IMG/VR virus record: IMGVR_UViG_3300046011_007693
Coordinates: 1 to 21,892 of that record
Length of the DNA: 21,892 bases
DNA from: a virus
Direction: 5' to 3' (one strand)
Shown here piece after piece: positions 1,782 to 20,018 of this stretch (its first letter is position 1; every line of letters starts with the position of its first letter). The notes under the pieces are model-generated. The model searched no databases. It was given only the letters and a program-made list of their open reading frames with translations, and was not told the origin of the DNA. Made by a program: the position numbers and the translations under genes.

Positions 1782-2156
1782 ATGGCAAATCGTTTTGACC
1801 TGCAGAACCCGGCGGCAAAGATTGCAAAGTCAGCCGCAAAGGGACAAACCTACGGCAAGGCCACAGAGCAGATGGCAAGCCAGTCGGCAGTGCCAATGGG
1901 TCCTTCACCTTCGGATGTTTCGGCTGGCCGCACAGCACGTCAGTCAGCAAAACTCACCTCAATTGGCGCACCTACGCAGCGCCCAGACGAACCAATTACT
2001 GCTGGCGCCAATTTTGGACCAGGTCCAAACATGTTCCAGGCTGGAATCCCGATGGTTTCGCAGACCAACATGGCGTTGGAAGAACTGCGGGCCATCGCAA
2101 TGGCATTCCCAAACGACGACCTGGATGATTTGCTGTCCCGCTACGGGATTGGCTGA
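1782..2156 (+). CDS. Small protein of unknown function after portal
   Basis: A 124-aa protein that starts 1 nt after the portal stop behind a strong GGAGG site, so it is translated with the portal. The first 85 residues are Ala/Ser/Gln/Pro-rich, probably disordered. The C-terminal 30 residues contain a likely amphipathic helix (ALEELRAIAMAFPNDDLDDL) ending in RYGIG. No signal peptide or membrane segment is visible. Its stop overlaps the ATG of the giant downstream gene (TGATG), indicating translational coupling. I do not recognise a family. Its place between portal and internal proteins suggests a minor virion or assembly factor, for example a small head or portal-associated protein, but this is inference from position only. 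Confidence 0.75.
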   Translation: MANRFDLQNPAAKIAKSAAKGQTYGKATEQMASQSAVPMGPSPSDVSAGRTARQSAKLTSIGAPTQRPDEPITAGANFGPGPNMFQAGIPMVSQTNMALEELRAIAMAFPNDDLDDLLSRYGIG

Positions 2157-5100
2157 TGCTTTACAACAACCTTTTCCCCGAGGACCGGGAGTACCTGCTG
2201 AGTTTGCAGCAGGACATGAACACTGCCCAGTACCAGTTCAGCCCTCAGTACTCGCAGTCCATGGCAATGAAGTTGAATCAAATCAACTATCGCGCACCAT
2301 GGCTGTCGCCAGAGGTACAACTCTCGCTTGCCAAGGCAGGCGCCAGTGCGGCAGCAATCGACGAAGTTGGCAGGATGGCCCAACAGCGCGAACTCGATTC
2401 GTTTGAACAGAGAAGAGATGCAGTTGGCAATCTTCCAACACCTGTCCGCGCCGTATTCGACGGCCTGAGTTTTGCCAAGCGCATTGCTTCAAAGACATTC
2501 CAGTTGGCGATTCCAGCGCCAGCAGAAGCCATTGCTGGTGGCATTACCAATCTTGTCGGCCCAGTAGCAAGTGCGGCGGCGCGTCCAGCCAAGTGGGCAT
2601 CGCGTTGGTCGCTTGCTGCTTTGATGAGCGTTCCGGAATACGCCAACACGGTACTCGGACAGATGTGGACCGGGGCTGGTCTTGACATTCCAGGAATGAT
2701 GTCAGCAAGCACATTCCAAACCATGCTCGACAATCCCGAAGAGCAGGGAGTTGGCTGGCTGCCCAACGCACAAATCGTGGAAGAACAGGCGGCACGCGCA
2801 CGCGCAACTCGCGGCACCATCTACGGTTCTGCATTTACCCTGGGCCGCGGAGTCATGTCGGCTGGCGGAATCTTCCGCGAAGAAGACATGGCCTATCGCT
2901 ATGGCTCGGGCGTAATCGACGCAATCTTCAACATTGTGCTGCCCGACCCCTCGAAGTACATTGCCAAGGGACTACGCACCGCCGAGTACGCAGCAGTGGC
3001 GATGAAGACCGGCGAAGCAATCGAAGTACTCCGAAAGGCCGGTACGCCATCGGCGGGATTGAAGGGCATTGTTCCGCTTCTCAGCGCAGAAGATGCCAAG
3101 TCCTTGCGCAGCGCACTTGGCCCCACGAAGCAAAAGATGCTCCGAGAAGCAGGACTCGGCATTGACTTTTCTGGCGCAACTTACAACGCACTCGAGTTCA
3201 ACAACTTCTTCCGCAGCAACCCATACGCAAAGAAACTTGTTGAAACTCTGCAAAACACAGACGACGCTGGCACCATCTGGGAAGACATCTTCGACGGCAA
3301 GATAACCACCGACATGGCGCTGCGCCTGAAGAATGCCAAGACAGAGGACCAGGTCATTTCGGCATTGACCAGCGGCTGGACCTACGGCGACCGCACACTG
3401 CAGGCCGGAATCGGAACCTACAAATACGAGCGCAATCTCGTCGGCAACAGCATTCGCAAGATGCGCGCATTCCAGCAGGTCCCAACCGAACAAATCGTGG
3501 TGTCTGGCGGAGACGTTGACAACCAGGAATCAATCCTGAACTTGACCCGCTCCTTGCGTGCAGGCGGCGCATCAGACGCAGAAATCAAGACGTTCCTTTC
3601 GGGCGACGAAAAGACAATCGGCGCACTCGAGGCTTTCTCCAAGTCGCCTCGCGCAACCCCAACAGCCAGAAAGAATGTCCTCAATACCTACAAGCGCTAC
3701 CTGAAGACCTATTTGCGCTCTTCTGGCGTACACGACCAGATGATTGAGGAAGTACTTAGCGGCGGAGAAATGACCATCGACGCGATGCGCTCGTACTTCC
3801 GCAGCCGCACGGGCGTTGAAACGGACAACGGTCTGATTCGCGCACTCTATGAACAGGTCAAGGACAGACTCGACCCCGACTTCGTGAACGAAGTGTTGGA
3901 TGGGGCTGGCTTCACCAAGCGCGACATTCAGTTGCTGCAGCCAGCGCAACTTGTCGACTTGTTGAACCGAGTCCAAATCCTTCCGGATACACGTGTCATT
4001 CGCCGTCTTACCCGCGGTTCATTGTTCCGCAAATTGCTGTCGGACAGCGAGGGCAAGCAACTTATTCCCAAGTTGCCCATCACGAGCCGCATGCCATGGC
4101 GCACAGTTGATGTCGTGCCCAAGGCACTGCGTCAGGAGTACGACGAAATCAACGATGAAATCCGCAGACTTGAGCAGTTGAAGGGTCCGGCACGACAGGC
4201 AGCCTCGGAGCGAATCGACGAACTAAAAGACCGTGCGGTCAGCATGACCGAACAGAAGCGCAGGCCAGTGCTAACCGGCGAGCAGCGCCTTTCTTTGGCA
4301 TTTGCCGAACTCCTACAGCAGCGAGTTTGGAAGGTCGCGCAGTTGGCGACTGGTGGATATGTAGTTCGCAACATGCTTGACGCACAGGTCCGCATGGCTG
4401 CCGGTGGCATCAATCAGTTCAAGCACCCAATTGACTACATCAATGCGGTGATTGGCAAGCGCTACGGCAAGACGATTACCGGTGTCGATGTCACCGACCT
4501 TGGAGTGTCGGCAGGCAAGCGAGCCCTCGAAGAGGGCGCCGAAGCCGCCGAAGCCGGTGTGCGGTCGAAGTACTGGGAGCGCAGCAGGCAAGAAGATGTC
4601 TACGAAGACTTGCGCGAGGCCTTCGTTGGTGCTTCTTCACGCTTCGGTTGGAGCGCCAGCGACAGCGTCAGGCACCGTTACAAGTCCGGGTCATTCACCC
4701 TGGTTACTAGGGCAAGCGGGCCAAAACGTTATCTGTCGCGTTACCACACAGACGGAGTCATCCAGTCCGCCCAGAAGACACTCACGGACGAGTTCCAGTC
4801 CCGCGCTGCAGTCGCACTCAGTGCCGGAAAGACAGATGAGCAAGTTGTAGATGAACTCATAAAGTTCATGGACAACGAGAGGACGCATGCGTTTAGAAGT
4901 GTAGACGCTCTCTTCTCTGATGGCATTGAGTTCTACGACAGGACAAAAGACGCACCATTCAAGTTCCCACCCCTGTCCATAAAGCAGTTGAAGAAGGACG
5001 ACCCAGAGTTCTATCGCTCGATTCTTGATGCGTACTTCCGCCACATCGTCATCGACAACGTCAGGTACAACACCGGAAACCTTGATGACGTCTTGTTTCT

Positions 5101-7282
5101 CTTTGCCCATAATGCTGTTGGCAATCTTGACGACACCAGGATTCTCAGAGTTGACGACTTCAAGTTGAAGCCCAAAGAAAAGGTCAAAGTGGGCCAAAGG
5201 CGCACGGTTGAAATTGCCGGTGAGAAAGTCTCTGGCATTGTTCGCAGGATTGAGGGCGACGAGTACACCTTTGTGCCCATCGCCGTGGACAACGCGGCAA
5301 CTGCGGGCAAGAACGGTCTGGGTGCTAAGGAGGCACGCCGACTCATTGAGCGCGCCAAACTGTACGACGAAACCACCAAGAAGGGTCTTGCCGTCTCATA
5401 CCCGCGCGAGCAAATGATTACCTACCGTCCTGGCGGAAAGTTCGATTCACTCGAGCAGCGAACCATGGACGCAATGGACAAGTTGACCAACTGGTTCTTT
5501 GACGGCTTTTACGATACGGCTTCACGCACGCTGGAGAAGTCGGTTGTGTTCCGCCAGTTCTACTACGACGAAGTGGTCAAGCACATCGACCAGTTGTCGT
5601 ACGAAGAGGGCATGAAGTTGTACGCCGAAATCTACGAAAAGTCCAAGGGCGACATTCGCAAATACTTTGGCGAAAGCAAGTTGCGACAGAAGGTCACAAA
5701 GGCGATTGAGGACCTGCCAAATCGCAAGGGCGCCAAGGGCACTCTTACCGTCGAGGAACTCGACGACTACTCGCGCTTTGTTGGAATCCACAACACCAAA
5801 GAACTTCTGTACGACGCATCGTCACGCAACAATTTCCAAGACGCATTGCGTGTGGTGGCTCCGTTCGAAGCGGCATGGCGAGACGTACTTGGTCGTTACG
5901 CAAGTTTCGCCGTCACCGACAACATCCACATGTATCGCCAGTTCCACAAGGTGTATCACGGCCTGTCGCAGGCTGACCCGGACATGGATGGTCGTGGCTT
6001 CATCTATCGCGACCCCAACACAGGCGAACCAATGTTCACGTTCCCCATGTCGGGGACCATTGCCAAACTGTTCACCGGCACCGACTCGCCCTTGAGCGCA
6101 CCGCTGGCTCGTTTGTCTCAGGGCATCAGTTTCTATCCAGCGCTGGGACCAATGGCAAGTTTCTCGGTTTCACAACTCCTGCCAGATGTGCCCAAGTACG
6201 ACAAGTTGAAAGAACTTCTGCTTCCGTACGGCGAGGTTGGCTTCCTTGACGCAATCAACGTCACGCCATCCTGGCTGCAAAAGACCGCACCCGCAATCGC
6301 TGGCATGTTCACAAACCAGGTCTACATGAACACCGTGTACGGCAACACCTATATGGAGACCTTGCGTGCTTTGTCGGTCAACACCGAGAAGTACAACCTG
6401 AGCACCGAAGAGGGCGTGACCCAGTTGATGGCAGATGCCAGGACGCGCGCTCAGATTCTTACCCTTATGCGCGCCCTCGGTCAGTTCACGGGACCAGCAG
6501 CCCCAATCGTTGAGTTCAAGGTTCCGACTAAAAAGGGTGACAAGTTCGTTGACGAACTGATGAAGGAACTGCGCACCTTTGAGCAGGAGGACTACGACAG
6601 CGCAGTCGACAAGTTCCTGGGGCTGTACGGAGACGAGTTGGTTCTTTACCTGGGCTCCAAGAGCCGAGCCGTTGCCCAGGGTCTTGAGGCCACCGAAGAG
6701 TTCGGCGTCTGGGAGCGCGAGAACAGGGACCTAATCAACCAGTTCCCTGACACCGCCTACTTCATGGCTCCGCGCGGCGGAGGCGACTTCAGTTTCAGCG
6801 TTTGGGAACGGCAGTTGATTGAGGGCAAGCGTGAGCGCTTGACCGACCGCGAGATGATTGACCTGGCACAGAACCGCTTGGGCGCCGTCAAGTACCGAGC
6901 CGCTCGCCGCATGTTTGGACCGAATCCAAACGAACTGCAGCGCAATGCCCTGCGCAACTACCGCGACTACCTCAACGCCAAACTGCCCGGTTTCCCACGC
7001 CGAGCCCAGTTCGAGGCAAACAAACTGCAGAACGACATCGACCAGTTGTACAGGCTGGCAGATGACCCACGTCTCGACGGCAACGCAATCGCGGCTTCGG
7101 TTCGCGAATACTTGCGCGTGAGAATACAGGTCATGCAGTCCAATGACCTGATTAGTTTCCAGTCCAAAAAGGCCGCTACGGCAAGACAGCAACTTTACCA
7201 GTTGGGTGAGTCGCTCTCGTCCGCGAACCCTGAGTTTGATAGAATCTGGCAGCGTTTCTTGGTGCAGGAAGTGGATTTGTAA
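2156..7282 (+). CDS. Giant (1708 aa) predicted internal virion / DNA-ejection protein
   Basis: A single uninterrupted 5.1-kb gene, by far the largest in the window. Visible pieces: an N-terminal helical part; an Ala/Gly/Pro-rich, partly hydrophobic stretch at about 114-160 that could contact membrane; a charged coiled-coil candidate at about 658-703 (rich in E, R, K); a helical motif around 717-765 including LLQQRVWKVAQLATGGYVVR and HPIDYINAV; a beta-rich insert around 1010-1040; and a hydrophobic section around 1292-1410 with the order FYPALGPMASF, LLPYGEVGFLDAI and TPSWLQK. Helix-rich giants with such motifs recur in phages as internal or ejected proteins (general knowledge). I see no lytic transglycosylase signature, no protease motif and no convincing RNA polymerase motif. 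Start overlaps the preceding stop. It lies between portal and scaffold with three further likely cargo proteins. A MuF-like or polyvalent head protein is the main alternative. Confidence 0.6.
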   Translation: MLYNNLFPEDREYLLSLQQDMNTAQYQFSPQYSQSMAMKLNQINYRAPWLSPEVQLSLAKAGASAAAIDEVGRMAQQRELDSFEQRRDAVGNLPTPVRAVFDGLSFAKRIASKTFQLAIPAPAEAIAGGITNLVGPVASAAARPAKWASRWSLAALMSVPEYANTVLGQMWTGAGLDIPGMMSASTFQTMLDNPEEQGVGWLPNAQIVEEQAARARATRGTIYGSAFTLGRGVMSAGGIFREEDMAYRYGSGVIDAIFNIVLPDPSKYIAKGLRTAEYAAVAMKTGEAIEVLRKAGTPSAGLKGIVPLLSAEDAKSLRSALGPTKQKMLREAGLGIDFSGATYNALEFNNFFRSNPYAKKLVETLQNTDDAGTIWEDIFDGKITTDMALRLKNAKTEDQVISALTSGWTYGDRTLQAGIGTYKYERNLVGNSIRKMRAFQQVPTEQIVVSGGDVDNQESILNLTRSLRAGGASDAEIKTFLSGDEKTIGALEAFSKSPRATPTARKNVLNTYKRYLKTYLRSSGVHDQMIEEVLSGGEMTIDAMRSYFRSRTGVETDNGLIRALYEQVKDRLDPDFVNEVLDGAGFTKRDIQLLQPAQLVDLLNRVQILPDTRVIRRLTRGSLFRKLLSDSEGKQLIPKLPITSRMPWRTVDVVPKALRQEYDEINDEIRRLEQLKGPARQAASERIDELKDRAVSMTEQKRRPVLTGEQRLSLAFAELLQQRVWKVAQLATGGYVVRNMLDAQVRMAAGGINQFKHPIDYINAVIGKRYGKTITGVDVTDLGVSAGKRALEEGAEAAEAGVRSKYWERSRQEDVYEDLREAFVGASSRFGWSASDSVRHRYKSGSFTLVTRASGPKRYLSRYHTDGVIQSAQKTLTDEFQSRAAVALSAGKTDEQVVDELIKFMDNERTHAFRSVDALFSDGIEFYDRTKDAPFKFPPLSIKQLKKDDPEFYRSILDAYFRHIVIDNVRYNTGNLDDVLFLFAHNAVGNLDDTRILRVDDFKLKPKEKVKVGQRRTVEIAGEKVSGIVRRIEGDEYTFVPIAVDNAATAGKNGLGAKEARRLIERAKLYDETTKKGLAVSYPREQMITYRPGGKFDSLEQRTMDAMDKLTNWFFDGFYDTASRTLEKSVVFRQFYYDEVVKHIDQLSYEEGMKLYAEIYEKSKGDIRKYFGESKLRQKVTKAIEDLPNRKGAKGTLTVEELDDYSRFVGIHNTKELLYDASSRNNFQDALRVVAPFEAAWRDVLGRYASFAVTDNIHMYRQFHKVYHGLSQADPDMDGRGFIYRDPNTGEPMFTFPMSGTIAKLFTGTDSPLSAPLARLSQGISFYPALGPMASFSVSQLLPDVPKYDKLKELLLPYGEVGFLDAINVTPSWLQKTAPAIAGMFTNQVYMNTVYGNTYMETLRALSVNTEKYNLSTEEGVTQLMADARTRAQILTLMRALGQFTGPAAPIVEFKVPTKKGDKFVDELMKELRTFEQEDYDSAVDKFLGLYGDELVLYLGSKSRAVAQGLEATEEFGVWERENRDLINQFPDTAYFMAPRGGGDFSFSVWERQLIEGKRERLTDREMIDLAQNRLGAVKYRAARRMFGPNPNELQRNALRNYRDYLNAKLPGFPRRAQFEANKLQNDIDQLYRLADDPRLDGNAIAASVREYLRVRIQVMQSNDLISFQSKKAATARQQLYQLGESLSSANPEFDRIWQRFLVQEVDL

Positions 7283-8113
7283 ATGGTTGAAACAGGCAAC
7301 AACATGGACCAGAATGCGGGTCAGGGCGTATCCGACTTCAGCATGGCGTTATCCTCGCTGCCAATAACCCCAACCCCTCAACGCAAGTTCACTGGTTTCT
7401 CGCCAAACCTAACCCCGCAAGAAATCCAAGAAATCCAGAACGACGCGAACATTAGGTTCAGTCAAATCACCAAGCCAAGAGTTATTGGCGGAGTCCTCGA
7501 GCCCTCCTACTACGACACCTACGTTCGTGGCGCAGTGCTGTTTGACGAGCAGGGCAGGGTTGCTGGCAAGCAGTACGACATCAGCGACCCCTTCGTGGTT
7601 GCTAGGCAGATGTACAAAATGAGCACGGCTGAGCGAATCAGGGTTGCCAAGGAACTCGAGCGCATTGGCTGGTATGGCAACAGCAAAGTTAGCGAAGCCC
7701 TGATGAACGGAATTGGCTGGGCTGACGAAGACGAGCGAGTGTGGGGCAAACTGCTCAGCATTGCCAACACCGCACAAAAGCCATGGTCGGATGTCGTCGG
7801 CATGCTTGGCACATTTGCAACCGTGCAAACTGGTGGCGGCGTAACAGTGCGAGTCACGTCCGATGAGGACGCCATGGCGTATGCGCGCGAAGCATTCTTT
7901 TCTCGTCTGGGCAGGGCTCCAACCAAGAAGGAACTGGCAGACGCAATCGACTTCATCCAGAACAAGGAGCGCTCAGCCGTTAGGGCAGGCCAGCAGATGC
8001 CAAGCAGCCAGGTCAGCGCAGCGGGCTTTGCAGAGGCTGCTGACCCGACAGCAAAGACATCATGGGGTCTTGGTAACGCAATCGCAATCGCAATGAATGC
8101 GCTAGGTCAATGA
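7283..8113 (+). CDS. Predicted internal virion protein (276 aa)
   Basis: Starts immediately after the stop of the 1708-aa gene, with AGGAAGTGG as a ribosome site. A disordered N-terminus (residues 1-45) is followed by mixed alpha/beta sequence. Around residues 190-235 there is a compact helical motif (AREAFFSRLGRAPTKKELAD, then AIDFIQNKERS). I associate this motif with phage internal or structural proteins that carry DNA-ejection functions, but no enzyme motif is present. The C-terminus is Ala-rich (GNAIAIAMNALGQ), potentially amphipathic. Its stop codon overlaps the next start (ATGA), so it belongs to the same translationally coupled block as the giant protein and the two genes after it. The likely role is cargo or core protein of the capsid; an alternative is a head-tail accessory protein. 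Confidence 0.6.
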   Translation: MVETGNNMDQNAGQGVSDFSMALSSLPITPTPQRKFTGFSPNLTPQEIQEIQNDANIRFSQITKPRVIGGVLEPSYYDTYVRGAVLFDEQGRVAGKQYDISDPFVVARQMYKMSTAERIRVAKELERIGWYGNSKVSEALMNGIGWADEDERVWGKLLSIANTAQKPWSDVVGMLGTFATVQTGGGVTVRVTSDEDAMAYAREAFFSRLGRAPTKKELADAIDFIQNKERSAVRAGQQMPSSQVSAAGFAEAADPTAKTSWGLGNAIAIAMNALGQ

Positions 8114-9072
8114 TGGCACCGAAACCCAAAAAACCAAAGAAGCCAAAGGTGCAGGACTGGCGCGAACAGTTCAAGGTTCAGTTCCCTCAGTTCGGTTCGA
8201 TGTTCGATGGCGGTGAGGGAGAGGCTAAGGCACGCGCCACCCTCGGGGAAGACCTCATCAATCTTTTCATTGACTTCGCCCAAAATCCAGACCAGTACGA
8301 CCTGACAACCGATGCTGGCAGAGCGGCGTGGATAGCCAAGGTTCAGGGCACGAAACTTTATACGGCCACGGATAAAGCCAAGCGCGACTGGGCTCTTCTC
8401 GGTCAGGCAGACAAAGACGACCAAATCAACGACAAGATGGTTGAACTGCGCAGCCAGTTCGGAGAACTAGAACTTGACGACACGCAGTTGCGCGACCTTG
8501 CCACCTACAGCCTGAGCACCAAGGCAAGCGAACTGCAGACCAACTACTACGCATACTCAATCGTCTCGACTCGCCAGGCAACCGCAGGTGGTCCTCCGGC
8601 CCTTGGAGAAACGGATGTCGCTACGCAGTTGAAGCAGGCCCTGAAGCGCTACAACTACAACCCTCCAGGACTGGACGACCAGATTCGTTCTGCGCTCACC
8701 GGACAGCCGTATCTTGGCACGACCTACACCCAGGACATGCTCATCAAGAAAGCCAAAGACAACGCGAAAATCATGTACTCGCAGTTCAGCGAGCAGTTTG
8801 ACCAGGGCTACACCATGGAGGATGTGTTCGAGCCGTACCGCAACCTCGCGGCACAGACCCTCGAGATGAATCCCATGGACATCAACATGGACGACCCGAA
8901 GTTCTCCATTGTCTTCAATAAGCGCCCAGATGGAACCAGCCTGACGGCTGACGACTTCCAGTTTGCGCTCCGCAGCGACCCCAAGTTCGGCTGGACCAAG
9001 ACACGTGCCGCCAGGAACGAGGCCATGAAGATGATTGACTTCCTTGAGCGCAACTGGGGGTTGATGCAATGA
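8110..9072 (+). CDS. Predicted internal virion protein (320 aa), basic N-terminus
   Basis: Begins with a Lys/Pro-rich basic tail (residues 1-16, repeated KPK units) that could bind packaged DNA. The rest is helical and acidic/Gln-rich, with pairs of helices around 55-150 and 160-250, and ends with a helix, MKMIDFLERNWGLMQ. Start may be either of two tandem ATGs (8110 or 8113); the first overlaps the previous stop and has AGGT nearby. No membrane segment, cysteine cluster or enzyme motif is visible. It is coupled to both neighbours by stop/start overlaps. I do not recognise a named family. From position and composition it is probably a packaged structural protein working with the 276- and 400-aa products. 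Confidence 0.58.
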   Translation: MMAPKPKKPKKPKVQDWREQFKVQFPQFGSMFDGGEGEAKARATLGEDLINLFIDFAQNPDQYDLTTDAGRAAWIAKVQGTKLYTATDKAKRDWALLGQADKDDQINDKMVELRSQFGELELDDTQLRDLATYSLSTKASELQTNYYAYSIVSTRQATAGGPPALGETDVATQLKQALKRYNYNPPGLDDQIRSALTGQPYLGTTYTQDMLIKKAKDNAKIMYSQFSEQFDQGYTMEDVFEPYRNLAAQTLEMNPMDINMDDPKFSIVFNKRPDGTSLTADDFQFALRSDPKFGWTKTRAARNEAMKMIDFLERNWGLMQ

Positions 9073-10271
9073 GCAACGTGGAGATGACATACGACCCAAC
9101 ACAGCAGCGCATGGTGCCTGTTTCTGAGGCCCGCGTTCGCACCAACGTCGCACAGCAGCCCAGAGACGAAGAAGCCGCTGCCCCCACCCCCACACCAGCA
9201 GAAGCACTGGCTACGGCCAATGCGGCCCGTATCGGCGAGGTCGAGACAGAAGCAGGCAGGGTGGCTGGCTTGGCAGGCGGAGCGCTGGCAAGCAGGGCTA
9301 GCGAGATTGTCGCTGGTGTCAGGTCGGGAACATACTCGGTTGCAGACGCACTGGGTGCGCTAGCAAACATCACCACTGCCATCGGAACCACCACCACCAG
9401 CGGCGGGGGCAACGAGGATGACGATAATTTGCCAATGGGCGAGAACCAGGACGCAAGGGCTTTGCTTGGGTCTTACTTGGCAAGGTACGGCCTGGAGTCC
9501 CTGGGCGACACAATCTCTGGGCTTATGGCTCGTGGTGTTACCACCGAGTCCGCAGTCCTCTTTGAACTTCGTGAGACAGAGGCGTTCAAGAAGAGGTTCG
9601 CCGCCAACATCAAGCGGGCAGCAGCCGGGCTGTCACAACTCACGCCTGCCTCTTACATTGCTTTGGAAAATACCTACCGCGAAGTCATGAAGTCAAACGG
9701 CATGGACCGCTACTTCAACCGCCCAGACATCATCGAGAACCTCTTGTCTGGCGACGTTTCCCCCCAGGAACTGCAGTCCAGAATCGCCCAGGGCTATCGC
9801 CAAGTGCAAGAAGCAGATGCTGCAACCAAGACGCAGATGCGCGAACTGTACGGCGTTGAAGACTCAGACCTCGCTGCGTACTTCCTGAACCCAACCGAAA
9901 CCATGCCGGTTCTGACCAGGCGCGCAGAGGCGGCCAAGTTGGCTGCCCGTGCCAAGGAGCAGGGAAACATGCAACTCACCAGGCTTACAGCAGAAGAACT
10001 GGCATCTCGTGGGATTACAGAGGCTCAGGCTTTTCAGACATTTGGGACCATGGCTCAGAGACGCGGTCTTTTCGAAACGATGACTGGCGAAGAAGAACTC
10101 ACAGCCGAAGAACAACTCGGCGCTTCCTTTGGCTACAACACCGAGGCACAGGAGCGCCTTGCCCGACGAGCCGAGACACGTCGCGCCGCATTCCGTGGCG
10201 GCGGCAGATTTGCGACTACCACTGGCGCAACATCCGGCACGATTGAGACCGGCGCCGGAATGGCGCAGTAG
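9069..10271 (+). CDS. Predicted internal virion protein (400 aa)
   Basis: The first 120 residues are low-complexity (Ala, Thr, Pro, Gly; an acidic EDDD patch at about 116-119). From residue 130 a helical domain follows, starting LLGSYLARYGLESLGDTIS and continuing with ENTYREVMKSNGMDRYF, VEDSDLAAYFLNPTETMPVL and AEELASRGITEAQAFQTF. I recall similar helical repeats in uncharacterised phage structural proteins of actinobacterial and aquatic phages. The C-terminus (about 358-385) is Arg-rich, ending in a Gly/Thr-rich tail. The start overlaps the previous stop (ATGA). This is the last gene of the coupled block; a promoter for scaffold and capsid lies just behind it. Probably packaged in or near the head. 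A tail-associated role cannot be excluded. Confidence 0.6.
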   Translation: MSNVEMTYDPTQQRMVPVSEARVRTNVAQQPRDEEAAAPTPTPAEALATANAARIGEVETEAGRVAGLAGGALASRASEIVAGVRSGTYSVADALGALANITTAIGTTTTSGGGNEDDDNLPMGENQDARALLGSYLARYGLESLGDTISGLMARGVTTESAVLFELRETEAFKKRFAANIKRAAAGLSQLTPASYIALENTYREVMKSNGMDRYFNRPDIIENLLSGDVSPQELQSRIAQGYRQVQEADAATKTQMRELYGVEDSDLAAYFLNPTETMPVLTRRAEAAKLAARAKEQGNMQLTRLTAEELASRGITEAQAFQTFGTMAQRRGLFETMTGEEELTAEEQLGASFGYNTEAQERLARRAETRRAAFRGGGRFATTTGATSGTIETGAGMAQ

Positions 10272-10400: not shown

Positions 10401-10862
10401 ATGTCAGATGTCAACGACCAGTTCGATGACGAGACGAGCGAAACGGTAAGCAAAGACCCCGTACGCGCGCACCTTAGAAAGGTGGAGCAGGAGAACAAAC
10501 TTCTCCGGCAGCAAGCGCAAGAGTTTGAATCCCTGAAGAGGAAGATGGCTTTCGCTGAGGCAGGCATTGATGTGAATGCCCCGCAGGCCAAATACTTCAT
10601 CAAGGGTTACGACGGCGAGGTCTCAGCCGAAGCGATTCGGGCGGCAGCACAAGAGGTAAACCTCTTACCGCAGCAGCAAGAGCCGAAAGAAGCAGTGGAC
10701 GACTCAGAGAAAAGGGCTTGGGCCAGGCTTCAAAAAGCAAGCACTGCTGCTGAGCAGACTGACGACCAAGTTGATTGGGTGAAGAAGTTGAACTCGACTC
10801 GCAGTCAAGATGAAGTCATGCATCTACTTGCGCAAATGAGAGAACAAACACAAAACATCTAG
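10401..10862 (+). CDS. Capsid scaffolding protein
   Basis: A 153-aa, acidic, Gln/Glu-rich helical protein directly upstream of the major capsid gene, the classic place for a scaffold. Residues 21-52 form a strong coiled-coil candidate (RKVEQENKLLRQQAQEFESL region). The middle (85-105) is Gln/Glu-rich and probably flexible. The C-terminus (105-153) is helical with basic patches (VDWVKKLNSTR), as expected for a capsid-binding tail. No protease motif is present, so it is not a fused maturation protease. ACGGAG lies 8 nt before the ATG. It shares a transcript with the capsid gene. The scaffold guides shell assembly inside the procapsid and leaves before or during packaging. The assignment rests on position, size and composition. 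Confidence 0.8.
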   Translation: MSDVNDQFDDETSETVSKDPVRAHLRKVEQENKLLRQQAQEFESLKRKMAFAEAGIDVNAPQAKYFIKGYDGEVSAEAIRAAAQEVNLLPQQQEPKEAVDDSEKRAWARLQKASTAAEQTDDQVDWVKKLNSTRSQDEVMHLLAQMREQTQNI

Positions 10863-10904: not shown

Positions 10905-11870
10905 ATGTCCAAGACAGAACAAAGCAGCCTTCTTACAGACCAGGTTGCATTTGACCGCATTGCGTATTTCGCACTTCGCTCCGAACTTCTGTTCGACGCG
11001 GTTGCAGACGTCATGCCGGTCGCCCAGGCAATGCCTGGCTCGTCGGTGAAGTTCACCATCTTCAACGACCTCTCCGAGGCGACCTCAACCCTGGCAGAAA
11101 CGACAGACGTCACCCCGGTGGCGATGAGCGACAGCCAAGTTGAAGTGACGCTGAACGAGTACGGCAACGCAGTCAACACCACAGCCAAGTTGCGTGGCAC
11201 GTCGTTCCTCGACGTCGACGCGGCAGCGGCGAACGTGGTCGGCTACAACGCCGGTATCTCAATCGACTCAGTCATCCGCGAGGTTCTCGCTGGCGGCACC
11301 AACGTCGTTTACGGCGGCGGCGGCACGTCCGACGAGACGGCTCGCAACCAGATTGAGGCCGAAGACATCATCGAGGCCAACGACGTTCGCAAGATTGTCG
11401 CTGCTCTCCGCAAGGCGAACGCAGTGTCGTTCAACGGCATGTACATGGGCTTCATTCACCCAGACGTGTCGTACGACCTCCGTCGTGAGACTGGTGTTGC
11501 TTCATGGCGTGACCCGCACGTGTACAGCGACCCGGCGAACATCTACAACGGTGAAGTCGGCGCCTTCGAAGGCGTGCGTTTCATCGAGTCGCCACGCGCC
11601 AAAATCTTCGAGAACGCCTCGAACGGTTCTGGCTCGACCGGAAACATTGACGTCTACTGCACCCACATCATGGGCCGTCAGGCTCTTGCTAAGGCGCACT
11701 CGATTGTCGATGGCAACGGACCGTTCCCACGTGTCGTTCGCGGCCCAGTGGTGGACGTGCTCCAGCGCTTCCAGCCAGTCGGCTGGTACTGGCTCGGTGG
11801 CTACGCACGCTTCCGCGAAGCGTCGCTGCGCCGCATTGAGTCCTCGTCGAGCATCGGCGCGAACTCCTAA
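10905..11870 (+). CDS. Major capsid protein, N4-gp56 family (HK97 fold)
   Basis: A 321-aa protein that I recognise as the N4-gp56 type of major capsid protein, which forms the icosahedral shell. Evidence: an N-terminal helical segment (LLTDQVAFDRIAYFALRSEL), beta sequence at 47-97, a helical spine region at about 108-172, and the family hallmark near the C-terminal half: MGFIHPDVSYDLR (181-193), WRDPHVYSDP (201-210) and IYNGEVGAFEGVRFIESPR (213-231). No cleavable delta-domain or protease is evident, and a separate scaffold gene precedes it. The GC-rich third positions and compact codon choice suit a highly expressed gene. GGA lies 12 nt before the ATG, and the segment AGAACGGA is shared with the scaffold leader. 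A strong terminator follows. Confidence 0.93.
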   Translation: MSKTEQSSLLTDQVAFDRIAYFALRSELLFDAVADVMPVAQAMPGSSVKFTIFNDLSEATSTLAETTDVTPVAMSDSQVEVTLNEYGNAVNTTAKLRGTSFLDVDAAAANVVGYNAGISIDSVIREVLAGGTNVVYGGGGTSDETARNQIEAEDIIEANDVRKIVAALRKANAVSFNGMYMGFIHPDVSYDLRRETGVASWRDPHVYSDPANIYNGEVGAFEGVRFIESPRAKIFENASNGSGSTGNIDVYCTHIMGRQALAKAHSIVDGNGPFPRVVRGPVVDVLQRFQPVGWYWLGGYARFREASLRRIESSSSIGANS

Positions 11871-13187: not shown

Positions 13188-13424
13188 ATGAAGCACAGGG
13201 AAACTCATCCGAACCTCGATGTTGAGGGCTGCTTTGCCTGCCGGATTTCACACGTTGCTGTTTCTGGCTCCGCGATGCCAACGCGCAGCAGGGCCGTGTC
13301 GGACATGAACCACAAGGAACGCATCCTCGACAAAGACCTGGATGCCTACAAGAGAATACGCAAGACCGGCGGCCAGCCGACAAAGATTGACGGTGCTGCA
13401 AAACTAGAGAAGATTGCCGATTGA
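13188..13424 (+). CDS. Small actinophage-type CxxC protein
   Basis: A 78-aa basic protein. HPNLDVEGCFACRI at residues 7-20 has a single CxxC pair, and the rest follows the order MPTRSR, then ERILDKDLDAYKRIRKTGG (about 44-62), then QPTKIDGAAKLEKIAD. This combination is familiar from small conserved proteins in many actinophages, where function is unknown. A lone CxxC could bind metal as a dimer or together with the His residues, but this is not shown. A GGGGG-rich ribosome site lies close before the ATG. Its stop overlaps the TTG start of the glycosyltransferase. Conservation of the family supports an actinobacterial host. Confidence 0.72.
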   Translation: MKHRETHPNLDVEGCFACRISHVAVSGSAMPTRSRAVSDMNHKERILDKDLDAYKRIRKTGGQPTKIDGAAKLEKIAD

Positions 13425-14524
13425 ACTACCAATCTTGGCGAGGTTTTCCTGACCCAAGATACGGGTACGGCACAATGCTCAAGGGCTTTGTCGACCACGT
13501 CCCCGCTGACGTCACGCTGCACGAACATGCCGATGTCATGGTGTTCATGATGCAGCCGTTTCAAATGGGGCACTTCTATTCCGGGCAACACAAGACGTGC
13601 TTCACGATGTGGGAATCGGACACGCTGCCTAAGCGCTTTGTTGACTGGCTACCCACATACGAACAGATAATCGTCCCCTGCACCCACAATCTGGACCTAT
13701 TCTCAAGGCACCATCGAAACGTAAAACTCGTACCTCTGGGCGTGGATTTGAAGCGATGGAAGCCAAAGGACAGAAAGACAAACCCAAGGTTCAGATTCCA
13801 TGCCGGTGGCTCTCAATGGATTCGCAAGGGATTGGACATAGTCCTTGAGGCTTTTCGACTTGCGAACCTTGATGCCGAACTGCACCTGAAGCCCAATCCA
13901 GAAGCCTTCGGGATGCCTGACCTTGACCTGCCCGACAATGTGTTTTTGCATCGGGGCTGGTTTACCGACGACCAAACCCTTGACTTCTTTCGTAGCGCAG
14001 ACTGCTGGATAGCGGCAACCAGGGGCGAAGGTTTCGGGCTGATGCCATTGCAGGCCATGGCAAGCGGCATCCCGACAATTATGAACGCAGCATCGGGGCA
14101 GGGAGACTTTGCCCATCTAGCCCCCATCGTTATTTCCCACAAGCCCGCCCCGTCGGATTACGGCGGCATGTGGGACGAATCCGACCCGAAGGAACTGGCA
14201 GGGGCGATGTGCGAGATGTATGCCAATCATGACCGCTACCTTCGGCACGCCCAAAGCGTGCTACCCAAAGTGTCAGAATGGTCCTGGGAATCGGCTGCCC
14301 GAAAACTCGCGAACGCTTTGCCCGAAGGCAAAATGCTGGCAAAGCCCAAGTTAGAGATGGCAACTGTTTGGCATCATGTAGTGCTGAACAGAACCGAACA
14401 ATGCGACATTGGCGACAAGTCCTATTACTTCGTCAAGGGCGTACCACTGCGAGTGCCCGAAAGGGTGCTTGGCGTTCTGCTCAGGACGGGGTATGTTGAA
14501 TCCCACACGAAAGAAACCCTATGA
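13421..14524 (+). CDS. GT4-like glycosyltransferase (GT-B fold)
   Basis: A 367-aa enzyme predicted to move a sugar from an activated (nucleotide) donor to an unknown acceptor. The C-terminal Rossmann half carries the family motifs: PLGVD (105-109), HAGGSQWIRKG (127-137) and the donor-site motif EGFGLMPLQAMASGIPTI (203-220). In the usual E-x7-E motif, the first Glu is E203 but the second position is Gln (Q211). The N-terminal half has WRGFPDPRYGYGTML (6-20) and MWESDTLP (63-70), as in other phage-encoded enzymes. Residues 313-367 form an extra small beta domain (KSYYFVKGVPLRVPERVLGV region) not part of the core fold. The start is TTG overlapping the preceding stop; an internal ATG at 13474 would remove the conserved N-terminus. 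Acceptor could be virion protein or host surface. Confidence 0.85.
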   Translation: MNYQSWRGFPDPRYGYGTMLKGFVDHVPADVTLHEHADVMVFMMQPFQMGHFYSGQHKTCFTMWESDTLPKRFVDWLPTYEQIIVPCTHNLDLFSRHHRNVKLVPLGVDLKRWKPKDRKTNPRFRFHAGGSQWIRKGLDIVLEAFRLANLDAELHLKPNPEAFGMPDLDLPDNVFLHRGWFTDDQTLDFFRSADCWIAATRGEGFGLMPLQAMASGIPTIMNAASGQGDFAHLAPIVISHKPAPSDYGGMWDESDPKELAGAMCEMYANHDRYLRHAQSVLPKVSEWSWESAARKLANALPEGKMLAKPKLEMATVWHHVVLNRTEQCDIGDKSYYFVKGVPLRVPERVLGVLLRTGYVESHTKETL

Positions 14525-14703: not shown

Positions 14704-14939
14704 TGGCGCTTGCGAAATCCCAGAAATCCTTGAAAAAATGGACCTCCCAAAAATGGCGCACGTCCGATGGCAAACCGTCAAAGGGCAAGAAGCGCTACCT
14801 GCCAGACGCGGCATGGAATGCGCTCAGCCCGTCTGAAAAAGCCGCAACAAACAGGGCGAAAGCCAAGGGTAATAAGGCTGGCAAACAGTTTGTCAAGCAA
14901 CCCAAAAAGGTTGCGGAGAAAACCAAGAGGTACAGGTAA
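14703..14939 (+). CDS. Tiny basic phage protein 2 (78 aa)
   Basis: Begins MALAKSQKSLKKWTSQKWRT and ends KQPKKVAEKTKRYR, with YLPDAAWNALSPSEKAATNR between. An open frame continues upstream to 14637, but the ATG at 14703, which overlaps the previous stop, is the natural start because the upstream extension lies inside the preceding gene and does not look like phage protein. Similar small Lys-rich genes occur in cyanophages and pelagiphages (from memory). The ending FVKQPKK...KTKRYR is distinctive. Function unknown; nucleic-acid binding is plausible from charge. Confidence 0.8.
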   Translation: MALAKSQKSLKKWTSQKWRTSDGKPSKGKKRYLPDAAWNALSPSEKAATNRAKAKGNKAGKQFVKQPKKVAEKTKRYR

Positions 14940-15211
14940 TGGCAATCACATACCGGGGCGAACGCTTTGCTGGTTACAACAAGCCCAAACGCACCCCCAA
15001 CGCCAAGAAGTCCCATGCAGTTCTTGCCAAGTCCGGCAGCCAGGTGAAGTTGATTCGCTTCGGCCAGCAGGGCGTACAAGGCTCCCCCAAAAAGAAGGGT
15101 GAGTCCGCGTCATACCGCAAGCGTCGCGAATCCTTCAAGGCACGTCACGCCAAGAACATCGCCAAGGGTAAGATGTCTGCGGCCTACTGGGCTGATAGAG
15201 TCAAGTGGTAA
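14939..15211 (+). CDS. Tiny basic phage protein 3 (90 aa)
   Basis: Contains GSQVKLIRFGQQGVQGSPKK at about 33-52 and YRKRRESFKARHAKNIAKGK at about 59-78, then MSAAYWADRVKW at the end. The order RFG-Q-G, RRxSFKARH and AAYWADRVKW is familiar from conserved phage proteins of unknown function, often near structural genes. The conserved His and Trp residues hint at a folded domain rather than a disordered basic tail. Its ATG overlaps the previous stop (TAATG). It may bind nucleic acid or metal; no evidence of catalysis is visible. Confidence 0.8.
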   Translation: MAITYRGERFAGYNKPKRTPNAKKSHAVLAKSGSQVKLIRFGQQGVQGSPKKKGESASYRKRRESFKARHAKNIAKGKMSAAYWADRVKW

Positions 15212-15226
15212 CCGAAAGGAACAGAC

Positions 15227-15346
15227 ATGCCCAAAGTTGGTAAGAAGGAATTTTCCTACAGCAAGAAGGGAATGGCAATGGCTAAGGCCGAGGCCAAGAA
15301 GACTGGTAAGCCCATGAAGATGGGTAAGGGAAAAAAGAAGAAGTGA
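15227..15346 (+). CDS. Tiny basic phage protein 4 (39 aa)
   Basis: A 39-aa gene: MPKVGKKEFSYSKKGMAMAK at the start, then an Ala/Lys helix and a final GKGKKKK. It has a good ribosome site (AAAGGA, 6 nt before the ATG) and follows the previous gene by 15 nt. Similar very short Lys-rich proteins with the VGKKxFxYxKKG start are known to me from aquatic phages. About 40 percent of residues are Lys. Likely nucleic-acid binding or a head-packed basic peptide; unproven. Confidence 0.72.
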   Translation: MPKVGKKEFSYSKKGMAMAKAEAKKTGKPMKMGKGKKKK

Positions 15347-15483: not shown

Positions 15484-16364
15484 CGACAGTTGCGACGGTC
15501 CTGAACAGGGCGTCGCGGCAGATGTTGGCAGGGGTCGTTGAAGAACGCAACAAACTGGCTGCGGCACTCGACAGCAGCACGACGAGTGTTGTTGTTTCTT
15601 ATGATGTCGGCGGCCTTCGTGCTGGCACTGTATTCGAGGTCGACTCAGAACTTTTTTACATCTGGGAAGCAAACTCAGCGACCAAGACACTGACGGTTGA
15701 AAGAGGCTACGCGGGTACAACCGCGGCATCGCACTCCTCCGGAGCGTTGGTTACCGTCACTCCGCGCTTCCCTCGAGCACAGATGCTCGACGCGTTGAAT
15801 GCAGACATCGACGACCTGTCGTCTACGGCGAACGGACTGTTCCGCGTCGTGAGCGTGGACCTGTCCTACAACGGCGCCGACAGGCAAATTGACATCACCT
15901 CCTCGGGGACAATTCTTCAGTTGCTTGACGTGCGCTTGCGCTACCTCGCTGACGAACACCCAGTGATTCACGGCGTGCGCTTGCAGACTGGCTTGCCCAC
16001 CGGCGACTTCGCCTCCGGCAACACTCTCGTGCTTGATGAGTCAGTTATGGCAGGAACACTTAGGGTTCGATACAAGGCTCCGTTTGCGCGCGCCACATCA
16101 GAGTCCGACGACCTGACGACAAACTGCTTTGTGCCAACCACGTGCGAAGACATAGTTGAAATGGGTGTCATTCTGCGCATGATGGCCGGTCGCGAAATCA
16201 AGCGCAACTTCATAGAAGCACAGGGCGATACTCGCCGTCCAGACGAAGTGCAGGCTGGCGCAGTGACCAACTCAATCGCCAACATTCTGCGCCTGCGTCG
16301 AGAGCGAATCATTGCCGAAGCCGGTCGACTCAAGGCGCTGTACCCAATCAAGTTCAGGAAGTAG
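15480..16364 (+). CDS. Predicted head-tail adaptor / connector protein
   Basis: A 294-aa protein placed just before the large beta-rich tail protein, as the adaptor precedes the nozzle in T7-like phages (gp11, gp12). Residues 1-26 and 215-294 are helical; the latter includes DIVEMGVILRMMAGREIKRN and a long basic helix (LRLRRERIIAEAGRLKALYP), a pattern suiting a ring protein that docks on the portal. Residues 27-95 are a beta module (with ERGYAGTTAASHSSGALV) that also occurs in the fibre-like gene at 18229, so it has an inserted domain compared with the roughly 200-aa T7 adaptor. CGGAG lies 4 nt before the ATG. It could instead be a neck or fibre-attachment protein. Confidence 0.6.
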   Translation: MTTVATVLNRASRQMLAGVVEERNKLAAALDSSTTSVVVSYDVGGLRAGTVFEVDSELFYIWEANSATKTLTVERGYAGTTAASHSSGALVTVTPRFPRAQMLDALNADIDDLSSTANGLFRVVSVDLSYNGADRQIDITSSGTILQLLDVRLRYLADEHPVIHGVRLQTGLPTGDFASGNTLVLDESVMAGTLRVRYKAPFARATSESDDLTTNCFVPTTCEDIVEMGVILRMMAGREIKRNFIEAQGDTRRPDEVQAGAVTNSIANILRLRRERIIAEAGRLKALYPIKFRK

Positions 16365-16367
16365 CCG

Positions 16368-18221
16368 ATGGCTACTATCACGCGTTTTACTGACGCGTTC
16401 CGACCAGCCACTGGTTTCTATACGGGAACCGGAGCAACACAACTAGTTCCAAACGTATTCCCCGTGGCAATCAACGGCAGGCCGTACATGATTGACACCA
16501 AGAGCAGGGAGTTCACACGCCAGTTTGATGCCCGTGTCCGTGACTCGGTTGACCAGTCGACAGAGCCTGGCGAGTCAGCGCTGAACCCGCAAGGGTTGTG
16601 GCGTCGCTCGCAGTCGTCGTGGCATTACGGTGCGGGGCAGCAGTATTCGGATACGGCTGACGCTGAGTCGTTCAGGTTCTATGAGAGCAAGGGCGTGGAC
16701 CCGTGGACGAAAGGTCGCTTATCGCTGCTGCGCGACACATCCAATGTTTACCCGACCTCAGGCACAAACCTGTATGCGGTGACAGCCGATGGGCGTTTGT
16801 ACGGCACTGATGGACAGACCGTGAAGTACACCACCGATTTTGTAACGGTCACAACGGTGACAGGTACCAAGGCGTCAAACTTGTATTCGATTACGTCGGA
16901 CGGCTACAACGTGTTCTACTCGTACGACAACGGCGACATCGACCAGACGAACGCTGGCATCTCCACGTCGTCGGCGTACATCACGGGTATCGAGGCTGGC
17001 GTTTTGGCGTATGTGCGTGGGCGTTTGATGGTCGCTGGTCAGGGTGTGGATAAGCGCAAGATTTGGAACATCACCACCGCAGCAGGCTCCTCAGCCAACA
17101 ACCCGACTGCTCTCTACACGCACCCGAACACAAACTGGACGTGGGTGGGTTTCGCCGCTGGCCAGACCCACATCTATGCCGCAGGCTACGCAGGTAACAC
17201 GAGCATCATGTACAAGACGCAAATCAAGGCTGATGGTACAGCGCTTGACATTCCGACTGCTGCCGCTGAACTGCCGCTCGGTGAGATTGTGCGTTCTATC
17301 TACGGCTATCTCGGCTACATCATCCTCGGCACCACGACAGGGTTCCGTTTCTGTTCAACGGACACCGACGGCAACCTCACCGTCGGCCCGCTCGTGGAGA
17401 CTGGGGCTTCTGTCGGTGCGATGGCTGGCATCGGTAAGTACGTCTACTTCTCGTGGTCCAACTTCGACTCCACCTCCACAGGCATCGGACGCATGGATGT
17501 TTCGGTGTTCATCTCCCCGAACCAGCCAGCGTATGCAACCGACCTGATGGCTACCGCCCAGGGTACGGTGCAAGCGATACATGAGTTCCAGAACGATGTG
17601 CTGTTCACGGTGTCTGGTGTTGGTGTGTTCCAGCCACACGCCACGAACCTTGTGTCGTCGGGCTACCTGCGTTCAGGTATCTATCGGTGGGGTGTGCCAG
17701 ACGCCAAGTTCATCCCGAAGTTGGACATCCGCTGTCTACCGTTGGTTGGGTTTGTCCAGTTGTCGATTGCCTCGGATGGGGGAGACTTCCACGACTTCTC
17801 CCCGGTCAGCATTGAGGGCATCAAGGAGAGAACCTTTGACGGGCTGGAAAGCAAGGTGTTCGAGGCCGAAATCAAGGTCACGCTTACTCGTTCTTCCGGC
17901 GCCACAACGGGCCCGACCCTAACCCGCTGGATGGCCCGTGCTTACGCGGCACCCCTTCGCTCCCAAATCTTTTCGGTCCCCCTCGTCATGCACCACAAAC
18001 TGTCCGTCAAGGGAAGGGAGTACTGGCAGGATGTCGACAGAGAACTTGGCTACCTGCGAGACCTGGTCGAGAACCCCAGGGTCGTCATCTATCAGGAGAA
18101 CCAAGAAACCTTTGCCGTTGTCGTGGAGAACGTCCAGATGCAGGTTCAGCAAATCATCAATGCCCACGTGGAAAACGACTTCGAGGGTACTGCTATAGTC
18201 GTTATGCGTAGTGTAAGATGA
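16368..18221 (+). CDS. Predicted tail nozzle / tube protein (beta-propeller-like)
   Basis: A 617-aa protein, starting 3 nt after the adaptor gene. Residues about 130-440 hold repeated strand-turn units such as GTNLYAVTADGRLYG, SNLYSITSDGYNVFYSYDNG, THIYAAGYAGNTSIMYKT and VGAMAGIGKYVYFSWSNF, which read like blades of a beta-propeller, as in T7-type nozzle proteins. The C-terminal 180 residues form a different beta domain (FVQLSIASDGGDFHDFSP; LTRWMARAYAAPLRSQIF) ending with a helical/strand part, FEGTAIVVMRSVR. It would form the distal tube of a short tail. No coiled-coil tape-measure gene is found in the window, which fits a podovirus. AGGAAG lies 8 nt before the ATG. Confidence 0.62.
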   Translation: MATITRFTDAFRPATGFYTGTGATQLVPNVFPVAINGRPYMIDTKSREFTRQFDARVRDSVDQSTEPGESALNPQGLWRRSQSSWHYGAGQQYSDTADAESFRFYESKGVDPWTKGRLSLLRDTSNVYPTSGTNLYAVTADGRLYGTDGQTVKYTTDFVTVTTVTGTKASNLYSITSDGYNVFYSYDNGDIDQTNAGISTSSAYITGIEAGVLAYVRGRLMVAGQGVDKRKIWNITTAAGSSANNPTALYTHPNTNWTWVGFAAGQTHIYAAGYAGNTSIMYKTQIKADGTALDIPTAAAELPLGEIVRSIYGYLGYIILGTTTGFRFCSTDTDGNLTVGPLVETGASVGAMAGIGKYVYFSWSNFDSTSTGIGRMDVSVFISPNQPAYATDLMATAQGTVQAIHEFQNDVLFTVSGVGVFQPHATNLVSSGYLRSGIYRWGVPDAKFIPKLDIRCLPLVGFVQLSIASDGGDFHDFSPVSIEGIKERTFDGLESKVFEAEIKVTLTRSSGATTGPTLTRWMARAYAAPLRSQIFSVPLVMHHKLSVKGREYWQDVDRELGYLRDLVENPRVVIYQENQETFAVVVENVQMQVQQIINAHVENDFEGTAIVVMRSVR

Positions 18222-19109: not shown

Positions 19110-20018
19110 ATGACGCTGCGGTGGGGTCAACGAGAGCGAGTCAGCACGCTAGTTGGCCAATGGTTTGGCACTGGTTGGGTTGCGCCAATTCTCACTCTGG
19201 CTGTTGAGTATCTGGTTATTGGTGGCGGTGGCGGCGCTGGTTCTGGTACCAACTCATCTGACGTTCGTTCTGGTGGTGGCGGTGGTGCAGGCGGTTATCG
19301 CACCAACGTAAGTGGCGCCACGTCTGGTCGAAACTCTTCAGCAGAAGCATCGATGACCCTGACTCCCGGCACATATTCGGTAACGGTCGGTGCTGGTGGC
19401 TCTGGCGGAACGCGAAACGGCGGAAACAGCGGAAGCAACAGCGTGTTCAACGGAATTACATCCACTGGTGGTGGTGGTGGTGGTGGAACTGGTTCTGGTG
19501 GTCTAAACGGTGGTTCTGGTGGTGGCGCTGGCGGAGACCAAAGCACCGCTGGTACTGGTGCGACCGCACAGGGTTTCGGCGGAGGCGGTCGTGACAGCAA
19601 CCGTGCTGGTGGCGGTGGTGGTGCTTCCGCGGCTGGCGGCAATGGCGGAGGTGTCGTTTCGGGAACTGGCGGCAATGGTCTTTCAAACAGCATCACTGGC
19701 ACGGCAGTAACTCGCGGTGGTGGTGGTTCTGGTGGTTCAGACAACCAAGCCGGCGCGGCTGGAACTGGTGGTGGCGGTTCGGGTGCCGTGAATGGAAACG
19801 GCAACGCTGGCACTGCAAACACCGGCGGTGGTGGTGGCGGTAGCGGTGGCGACCAAGGAACCGCATTTACTGGCGGCGCTGGTGGTGCGGGTGTTGTCAT
19901 CGTGCGTTACTTGACTGCTGACGGTTCGACATTCACCATTACTGGCGGAACAATAACCACCTCCGGCTCGCACACGATTCACACCTTCAACAGCACTGGT
20001 AATTTGGTAATCGCATGA
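19110..20018 (+). CDS. Glycine-rich tail adhesin candidate, copy 1
   Basis: A 302-aa protein. Residues 1-37 are a conserved head (GQRERVSTLVGQWF, VEYLVIGGG). Residues 38-265 are dominated by runs of Gly broken by short inserts such as GGYRTNVSGATSG, TPGTYSVTVGAGGSGG and SGSNSVFNGITSTGG. The last 40 residues return to beta sequence (VVIVRYLTADGSTFTITGG ... HTIHTFNSTGNLVIA). This layout belongs to a glycine-rich domain family found in phage tail tips and bacterial surface proteins. In phage S16-type adhesins, similar Gly-rich stretches fold as a polyglycine sandwich that displays variable loops for receptor binding (established for that system, inferred here). The next gene is a paralogue, overlapping by ATGA. 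Confidence 0.75.
   Translation: MTLRWGQRERVSTLVGQWFGTGWVAPILTLAVEYLVIGGGGGAGSGTNSSDVRSGGGGGAGGYRTNVSGATSGRNSSAEASMTLTPGTYSVTVGAGGSGGTRNGGNSGSNSVFNGITSTGGGGGGGTGSGGLNGGSGGGAGGDQSTAGTGATAQGFGGGGRDSNRAGGGGGASAAGGNGGGVVSGTGGNGLSNSITGTAVTRGGGGSGGSDNQAGAAGTGGGGSGAVNGNGNAGTANTGGGGGGSGGDQGTAFTGGAGGAGVVIVRYLTADGSTFTITGGTITTSGSHTIHTFNSTGNLVIA

Follow-up and report, generated by a model that had tools for sequence, protein, structure and literature searches.

The window analysed here is a 21,892-base virus record (IMGVR_UViG_3300046011_007693) that carries a block of four open reading frames (ORFs) of 1708, 276, 320 and 400 amino acids (aa), referred to as A, B, C and D, between the genes for the portal and scaffold proteins. 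Based on homology, synteny and exchange, this block is probably an ejection-protein cassette of podoviruses infecting Actinomycetota, in an unusual gene position and built from different parts. The most striking result is the exchange of this cassette among relatives of the window.

The block is framed by conserved head genes, all on the plus strand. On its left lies the portal gene (positions 23-1780, 585 aa; phrog_104, E 3e-13), which is followed by g124 (1782-2156), a 124-aa adaptor-like protein (phrog_8200). Next come A (2156-7282), a large virion-type protein and the candidate main ejection protein; B (7283-8113), which is co-inherited with A; C (8110-9072), a core domain matching phrog_34303 and phrog_6654; and D (9069-10271), a helical protein (phrog_8424, E 2e-65). 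On the right lie a probable scaffold protein (10401-10862, 153 aa; phrog_7813), whose positional counterpart in the Streptomyces phage Dennebes bears the annotation 'scaffolding protein', and the major capsid protein (10905-11870, 321 aa; PF13252, E 4e-55; phrog_1357, E 6e-86). An earlier note on this sequence had placed the four ORFs between portal and scaffold and described them as translationally coupled, and both points stand: g124 and A overlap by 1 nucleotide, A abuts B, and B/C and C/D each overlap by 4 nucleotides. A-D are real genes, because the order portal-g124-A-B-C-D-scaffold is kept in 59 metagenomic phage loci, all complete from portal to scaffold, and the window region recurs at 100% protein identity on two further contigs from other metagenomes. 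The functional unit is larger than the four genes first described and includes g124.

Exchange of the block is seen in two cultivated freshwater actinophages, the Planktophila phages LanE43AprE7 and LanE43AprF5 (E7 and F5; OX376640 and OX376641), for whose isolation one host strain was used (PMC10202952). Both carry A, C and D types in the portal-scaffold slot, as the window does. Their DNA is 96-98% identical over E7 positions 2833-8372 and again from 16922 onward, whereas the ~8.5 kb between these flanks, which is exactly the block, has no DNA similarity. The F5 block encodes an A-sized protein (1711 aa), C (hmmsearch, 4e-13) and D in the order found in E7. The two D proteins are 26% identical, the two A proteins are unlike by BLAST, and the profile match of the F5 A is weak (60%). 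Unlike the window, E7 and F5 have no recognisable separate B gene, and their two versions of the block diverge deeply. In each of them an island of 8 kb has been described whose hypothetical proteins lack homologues in the other of the two phages, and recruitment plots indicate that this island is variable in nature (PMC10202952). This published '8 kbp genomic island' appears to be the block described here. Both genomes also encode a proteasome/HslV-like protein (PF00227, phrog_1040) between the portal and the g124 homologue (L013, 7500-8036).

The metagenomic relatives of the window number over 500 and are from freshwater. Exchange among them was quantified from pairwise identities across 54 non-redundant loci. 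Median pairwise identity is 78% for the portal and 53% for the scaffold, against 33% for A, 24% for B and 28% for C. The identities of A and B covary strongly (rho 0.79), while those of A and portal hardly do (rho 0.18), with a bootstrap interval of 0.41-0.75 for the difference. D, whose C-terminal part is conserved, covaries with the portal (rho 0.70) rather than with A (0.20), and the last part of C, like D, follows the head genes. Within g124, the C-terminal half tracks A (rho 0.61) and the N-terminal half does not (0.21). From these covariation patterns, we read g124 and D as putative adaptors that link the stable head to the variable proteins. A is less than 50% identical in 21 of the 40 pairs, not independent of one another, that have portals at least 95% and scaffolds at least 90% identical, and two or more A types occur in eight of ten portal clusters. 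The reverse case is also found: between L115 and L163, identity is 98-100% for A, B and C, against 48% for the scaffold. Breakpoints were mapped in eight swapped metagenome pairs and in E7 versus F5. In the metagenome pairs, the left breakpoint lies at the portal end, often inside g124 and for one pair near the start of A, and the right breakpoint lies within C or D. By analogy with these relatives, the exchangeable segment of the window would run approximately from mid g124 to within D (2007-9700, plus strand). No swap was seen among the window's own closest relatives, in which portal identity is 92-94% and A identity 80-86%.

Such a pattern could in principle be an artefact of metagenome assembly in which strains are joined at conserved head genes; mis-joins would be expected at shared flanks, and many of the contigs come from mixed populations. 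We consider this explanation highly improbable, since the cultivated, genome-sequenced E7 and F5 show the same pattern in the same place, the 8-kb island is variable in the published recruitment plots, and several A types recur in independent contigs (A27 in four, A16 in seven).

The block is not unique to the window phage. Homologues of A had to be sought with profiles, because a tblastn search of A against 50,697 records of cultured phages found nothing. With C and D, matches were obtained to Beephvirinae, a subfamily of Streptomyces podoviruses (cluster BF), and to a single Planktophila phage. In Immanuel3, the portal (gp03) is followed by small genes and then by gp09 (1648 aa), gp10 (274 aa), gp11 (438 aa), gp12 (432 aa) and gp13 (373 aa), downstream of which lie transfer RNA (tRNA) genes, the scaffold slot (gp62) and the capsid (gp61). 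This gene order is repeated in five other Beephvirinae. JXY1 has the same order recorded on the opposite strand, with A and the first C annotated in pieces. By hhalign, for which unrelated family pairs score below 2%, D matches gp13 at 100% (E 2e-43), C matches gp11 and gp12 at 99%, and A matches gp09 at 97.6% (E 3e-12). Three bridging contigs were identified: a Streptomyces himalayensis contig, a Herbidospora prophage and a contig from an Acidimicrobiales metagenome-assembled genome. Addition of the first two to the A and B profiles raises the A-gp09 match to 99.9% (E 2e-31) and the match of B to gp10, which occupies the same slot, from 85% to 89.5% (E 2e-6, 103 columns). The B of the Herbidospora prophage matches the B families of both groups.

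Beephvirinae share with the window the portal-scaffold slot, the gene order and homologous A, C and D, with gp10 a probable counterpart of B on a weaker match. They differ in possessing two C genes, with NlpC/P60 and SLT domains, where the window has a single C without an enzyme, and in carrying 15-22 tRNA genes between D and the scaffold, where the window has a 129-bp spacer. In L011, of the Beephvirinae, these tRNA genes are located at 16040-17988; no tRNAs or Rfam families were found in the window. As judged from the alignments and gene order, the window block belongs to the Beephvirinae-type block as a variant with a single C and without hydrolases. Its proper comparison is this actinophage lineage rather than T7-like phages.

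The C homologues of Streptomyces phages would link the block to the cell wall. The N-terminus of Immanuel3 gp11 is an NlpC/P60 domain (E 4e-30) and that of gp12 is a lytic transglycosylase SLT domain (E 3e-5); the two proteins are paralogues that share the phrog_6654 core behind their enzyme domains. C of the window consists of this core only. We regard the hydrolase as a detachable module of C, because NlpC/P60 is a separate ORF adjoining a bare C core in the Herbidospora prophage and a Pfam scan recognised no hydrolase in the C proteins of ten freshwater relatives. The absence of an enzyme motif claimed earlier is true of the window proteins in Pfam and phrog scans, yet the Streptomyces-phage relatives of C do carry enzymes. 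C ranges from 274 to 705 aa in the freshwater group; its long N-terminal parts were considered as wall hydrolases and rejected on the same scan; inspected by eye, they appear helical, with linkers rich in Pro and Thr. Across the freshwater records, NlpC/P60 and M23 gave nothing above cut-off, and SLT exceeded it in three records, within small separate open frames. In L148, L152, L179 and L180, an A of 2171-2264 aa is paired with a short C of 274-334 aa. Variation in wall-degrading activity is also known among ejection proteins: T7 gp16 has a transglycosylase and P22 gp16 does not, while K1E has lysozyme activity on its gp15 homologue (PMC8954989).

Abafar, a member of the Beephvirinae, has a 16-nm tail and is a podovirus (PMC11536984). 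WhiB, an actinophage marker (PMC10202952), was detected in 21 of 24 related records, among them a contig carrying the window sequence; in a control set of 14 genomes, Corynebacterium alone scored. This distribution suggests that the hosts of block-bearing phages are Actinomycetota.

Comparison with characterised ejection systems reveals likeness in organisation and difference in sequence. The earlier note had contrasted the block with T7 in gene order and in parts, and both contrasts hold. Records of T7, P22 and N4 place ejection genes after the capsid and tail genes, whereas portal and scaffold genes flank the present block; no other ejection candidate was seen after the tail genes. The A-D profiles reveal no relationship with T7 gp14-16, P22 gp7/20/16 or N4 gp51/52 and give chance-level matches only among Protein Data Bank (PDB) sequences. 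All hhalign pairs with T7 and P22 score below 2%, with single T7 and P22 sequences used and very remote homology still possible. As with T7 gp14, gp15 and gp16, the block encodes a very large protein together with smaller ones, and a peptidoglycan hydrolase within the set is common to T7 and Beephvirinae; it differs in that the T7 genes follow the tail tube genes and have no detectable sequence relation to A-D.

The resemblance to P22 lies in gp7, gp20 and gp16, adjacent genes that diverge strongly between phages and work when moved as a matched set. Most gp16 proteins of P22-like phages have identities of 22-26%, a complete ejection set from another phage is functional in P22, gp16 has to be matched with gp20, and mutations in these two proteins allow escape from exclusion by SieA (PMC10883804). 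P22-type exchange between like heads is seen in the window's relatives, not in its closest kin. The P22 genes differ in lacking a detectable sequence relation to the block, in being encoded after the capsid and tail genes, and in serving Gram-negative hosts. In Schitoviridae (DEV gp71-73, N4 gp50-52), a giant protein likewise stands beside smaller ones, and DEV gp72 encircles the portal as a helical ring, a position also conceivable for D. These phages differ in that N4 gp51/52 are unrelated to A-D and no RNA polymerase domain was found in A by Pfam. The block may work like the T7, P22 and N4 systems, but no profile match places it among them.

The predicted structures are helical in part. A was described earlier as helix-rich, as were its partners; this is supported for D, whose AlphaFold2 model is all-helical (pLDDT 77), and mostly for residues 509-1708 of A, where the model is poor (pLDDT 59.5) and includes a small beta domain. 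The claim of basic tails is only partly right: A has a pI of 8.6 and C a start rich in Lys and Pro, but the overall pI is acidic for B (5.3), C (5.1) and D (4.9). A has no Pfam match. The D model matches designed helical repeats and similar chains in the PDB (Z up to 7.2), and its significant matches in a viral structure library are confined to its own family. Residues ~988-1047 of the low-confidence A model best match a SlyD insert-in-flap-like beta domain (Z 7.2 over ~55 residues), and fold matches of A were not used because of that low confidence. Fold comparison with ejection proteins, covering D and the low-confidence partial model of A, gave no clear match.

Several features are consistent with the following mechanism. 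g124 and A-D would form the ejection-protein module of a short-tailed phage infecting Actinomycetota. A-D would be built into the head beside the portal during assembly and, on infection, would leave before or with the DNA, forming a path through the cell wall and membrane. A may be the principal component, large in size, with B as an obligate partner, while C would act at the cell-wall step, bearing wall-cutting enzymes in Streptomyces phages. D and g124 could join the changing set to the conserved head, because parts of both follow head genes in evolution. Loading near the portal and ejection of A-D are proposed by analogy with P22-like phages, the nearest tested parallel, and cassette exchange may serve escape from exclusion systems, as the case of P22 and SieA suggests. 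We infer virion presence, ejection and a conduit; least secure is which role belongs to which protein. An alternative, distinctly unlikely in our view, is that A-D are co-injected effectors, borne in the head and blocking defences or taking over the host without forming a conduit. Large, fast-changing, exchanged proteins in the portal-scaffold slot, unrelated to known channel proteins, would fit such effectors. However, the conserved four-gene order, the co-inheritance of A and B, and the wall hydrolases on C homologues point instead to an envelope-acting machine.

Other observations weigh against an ejection role. No virion proteomics or structure was found in the literature for any block-carrying phage, and A-D show no sequence relation to known ejection proteins. 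C has no recognisable hydrolase in the window or in the freshwater relatives tested. No transmembrane helices are apparent in A-D, in which no 19-residue hydrophobicity window exceeds 1.6; on the same measure, T7 gp14 and gp16 are slightly above A-D and also under 1.6. Exchange would also suit other host-facing proteins. Chimeric assemblies could have raised the metagenome counts, but they do not account for E7 and F5. Finally, the C homologues are annotated by SEA-PHAGES as 'minor tail protein'. This label would suit A-D as external tail-tip or baseplate proteins, forming a tail knob with wall-degrading enzymes as in phi29-type podoviruses and neither stored in the head nor ejected. The Actinomycetota hosts would suit it too, as phi29-like phages, which infect Gram-positive bacteria, are said to lack ejection genes (PMC8954989), and NlpC/P60 is likewise found in the tail proteins phrog_329 and phrog_400 of other phages. 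Even so, a tail location is unlikely, given that the A-D genes come ahead of those for scaffold and capsid and at a distance from g294 and g617, the probable tail genes, that D co-varies with the portal, and that exchange of a large set with an unchanged head resembles the P22 ejection genes. The ejection apparatus proposed in the earlier note is favoured indirectly and in part, through hydrolase-bearing C homologues in podoviruses, cassette exchange and the lack of another candidate; a channel or core and presence in virions are predictions.

Elsewhere in the window, a 367-aa ORF with a TTG start (13421-14524), between head and tail genes, resembles a glycosyltransferase as judged by eye, and related freshwater actinophages reportedly carry glycosyltransferases (PMC10202952). 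Two overlapping Arg-rich ORFs (111 and 72 aa) at 14767-15317 are apparently non-coding, and regulatory sequence or a different gene may lie there. At 19110-20018 and 20015-20947 stand two tandem paralogues rich in glycine (302 and 310 aa), which are probably tail-tip or fibre proteins, and E7 and F5 carry homologous tandem copies.

According to a 2022 review, podoviruses with Gram-negative hosts commonly have ejection proteins, whereas the phi29-like phages of Gram-positives lack them (PMC8954989). Possibly, although we hold this more loosely than the assignment of the block, a separate ejection system evolved in podoviruses of Actinomycetota, where none such has been described, and phages with near-identical heads exchange its core in the form of an allelic cassette, perhaps because the ejected proteins are targets of exclusion at the envelope, in the way that P22 ejection proteins are for SieA. 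The block offers a concrete candidate for the entry of actinobacterial podoviruses, spanning an abundant freshwater group and cultivable Streptomyces phages. The exchange data suggest a function for the '8 kbp genomic island' of hypothetical proteins in the first cultivated Nanopelagicales phages, and they suggest that entry proteins, besides fibres, are a main site of diversification.

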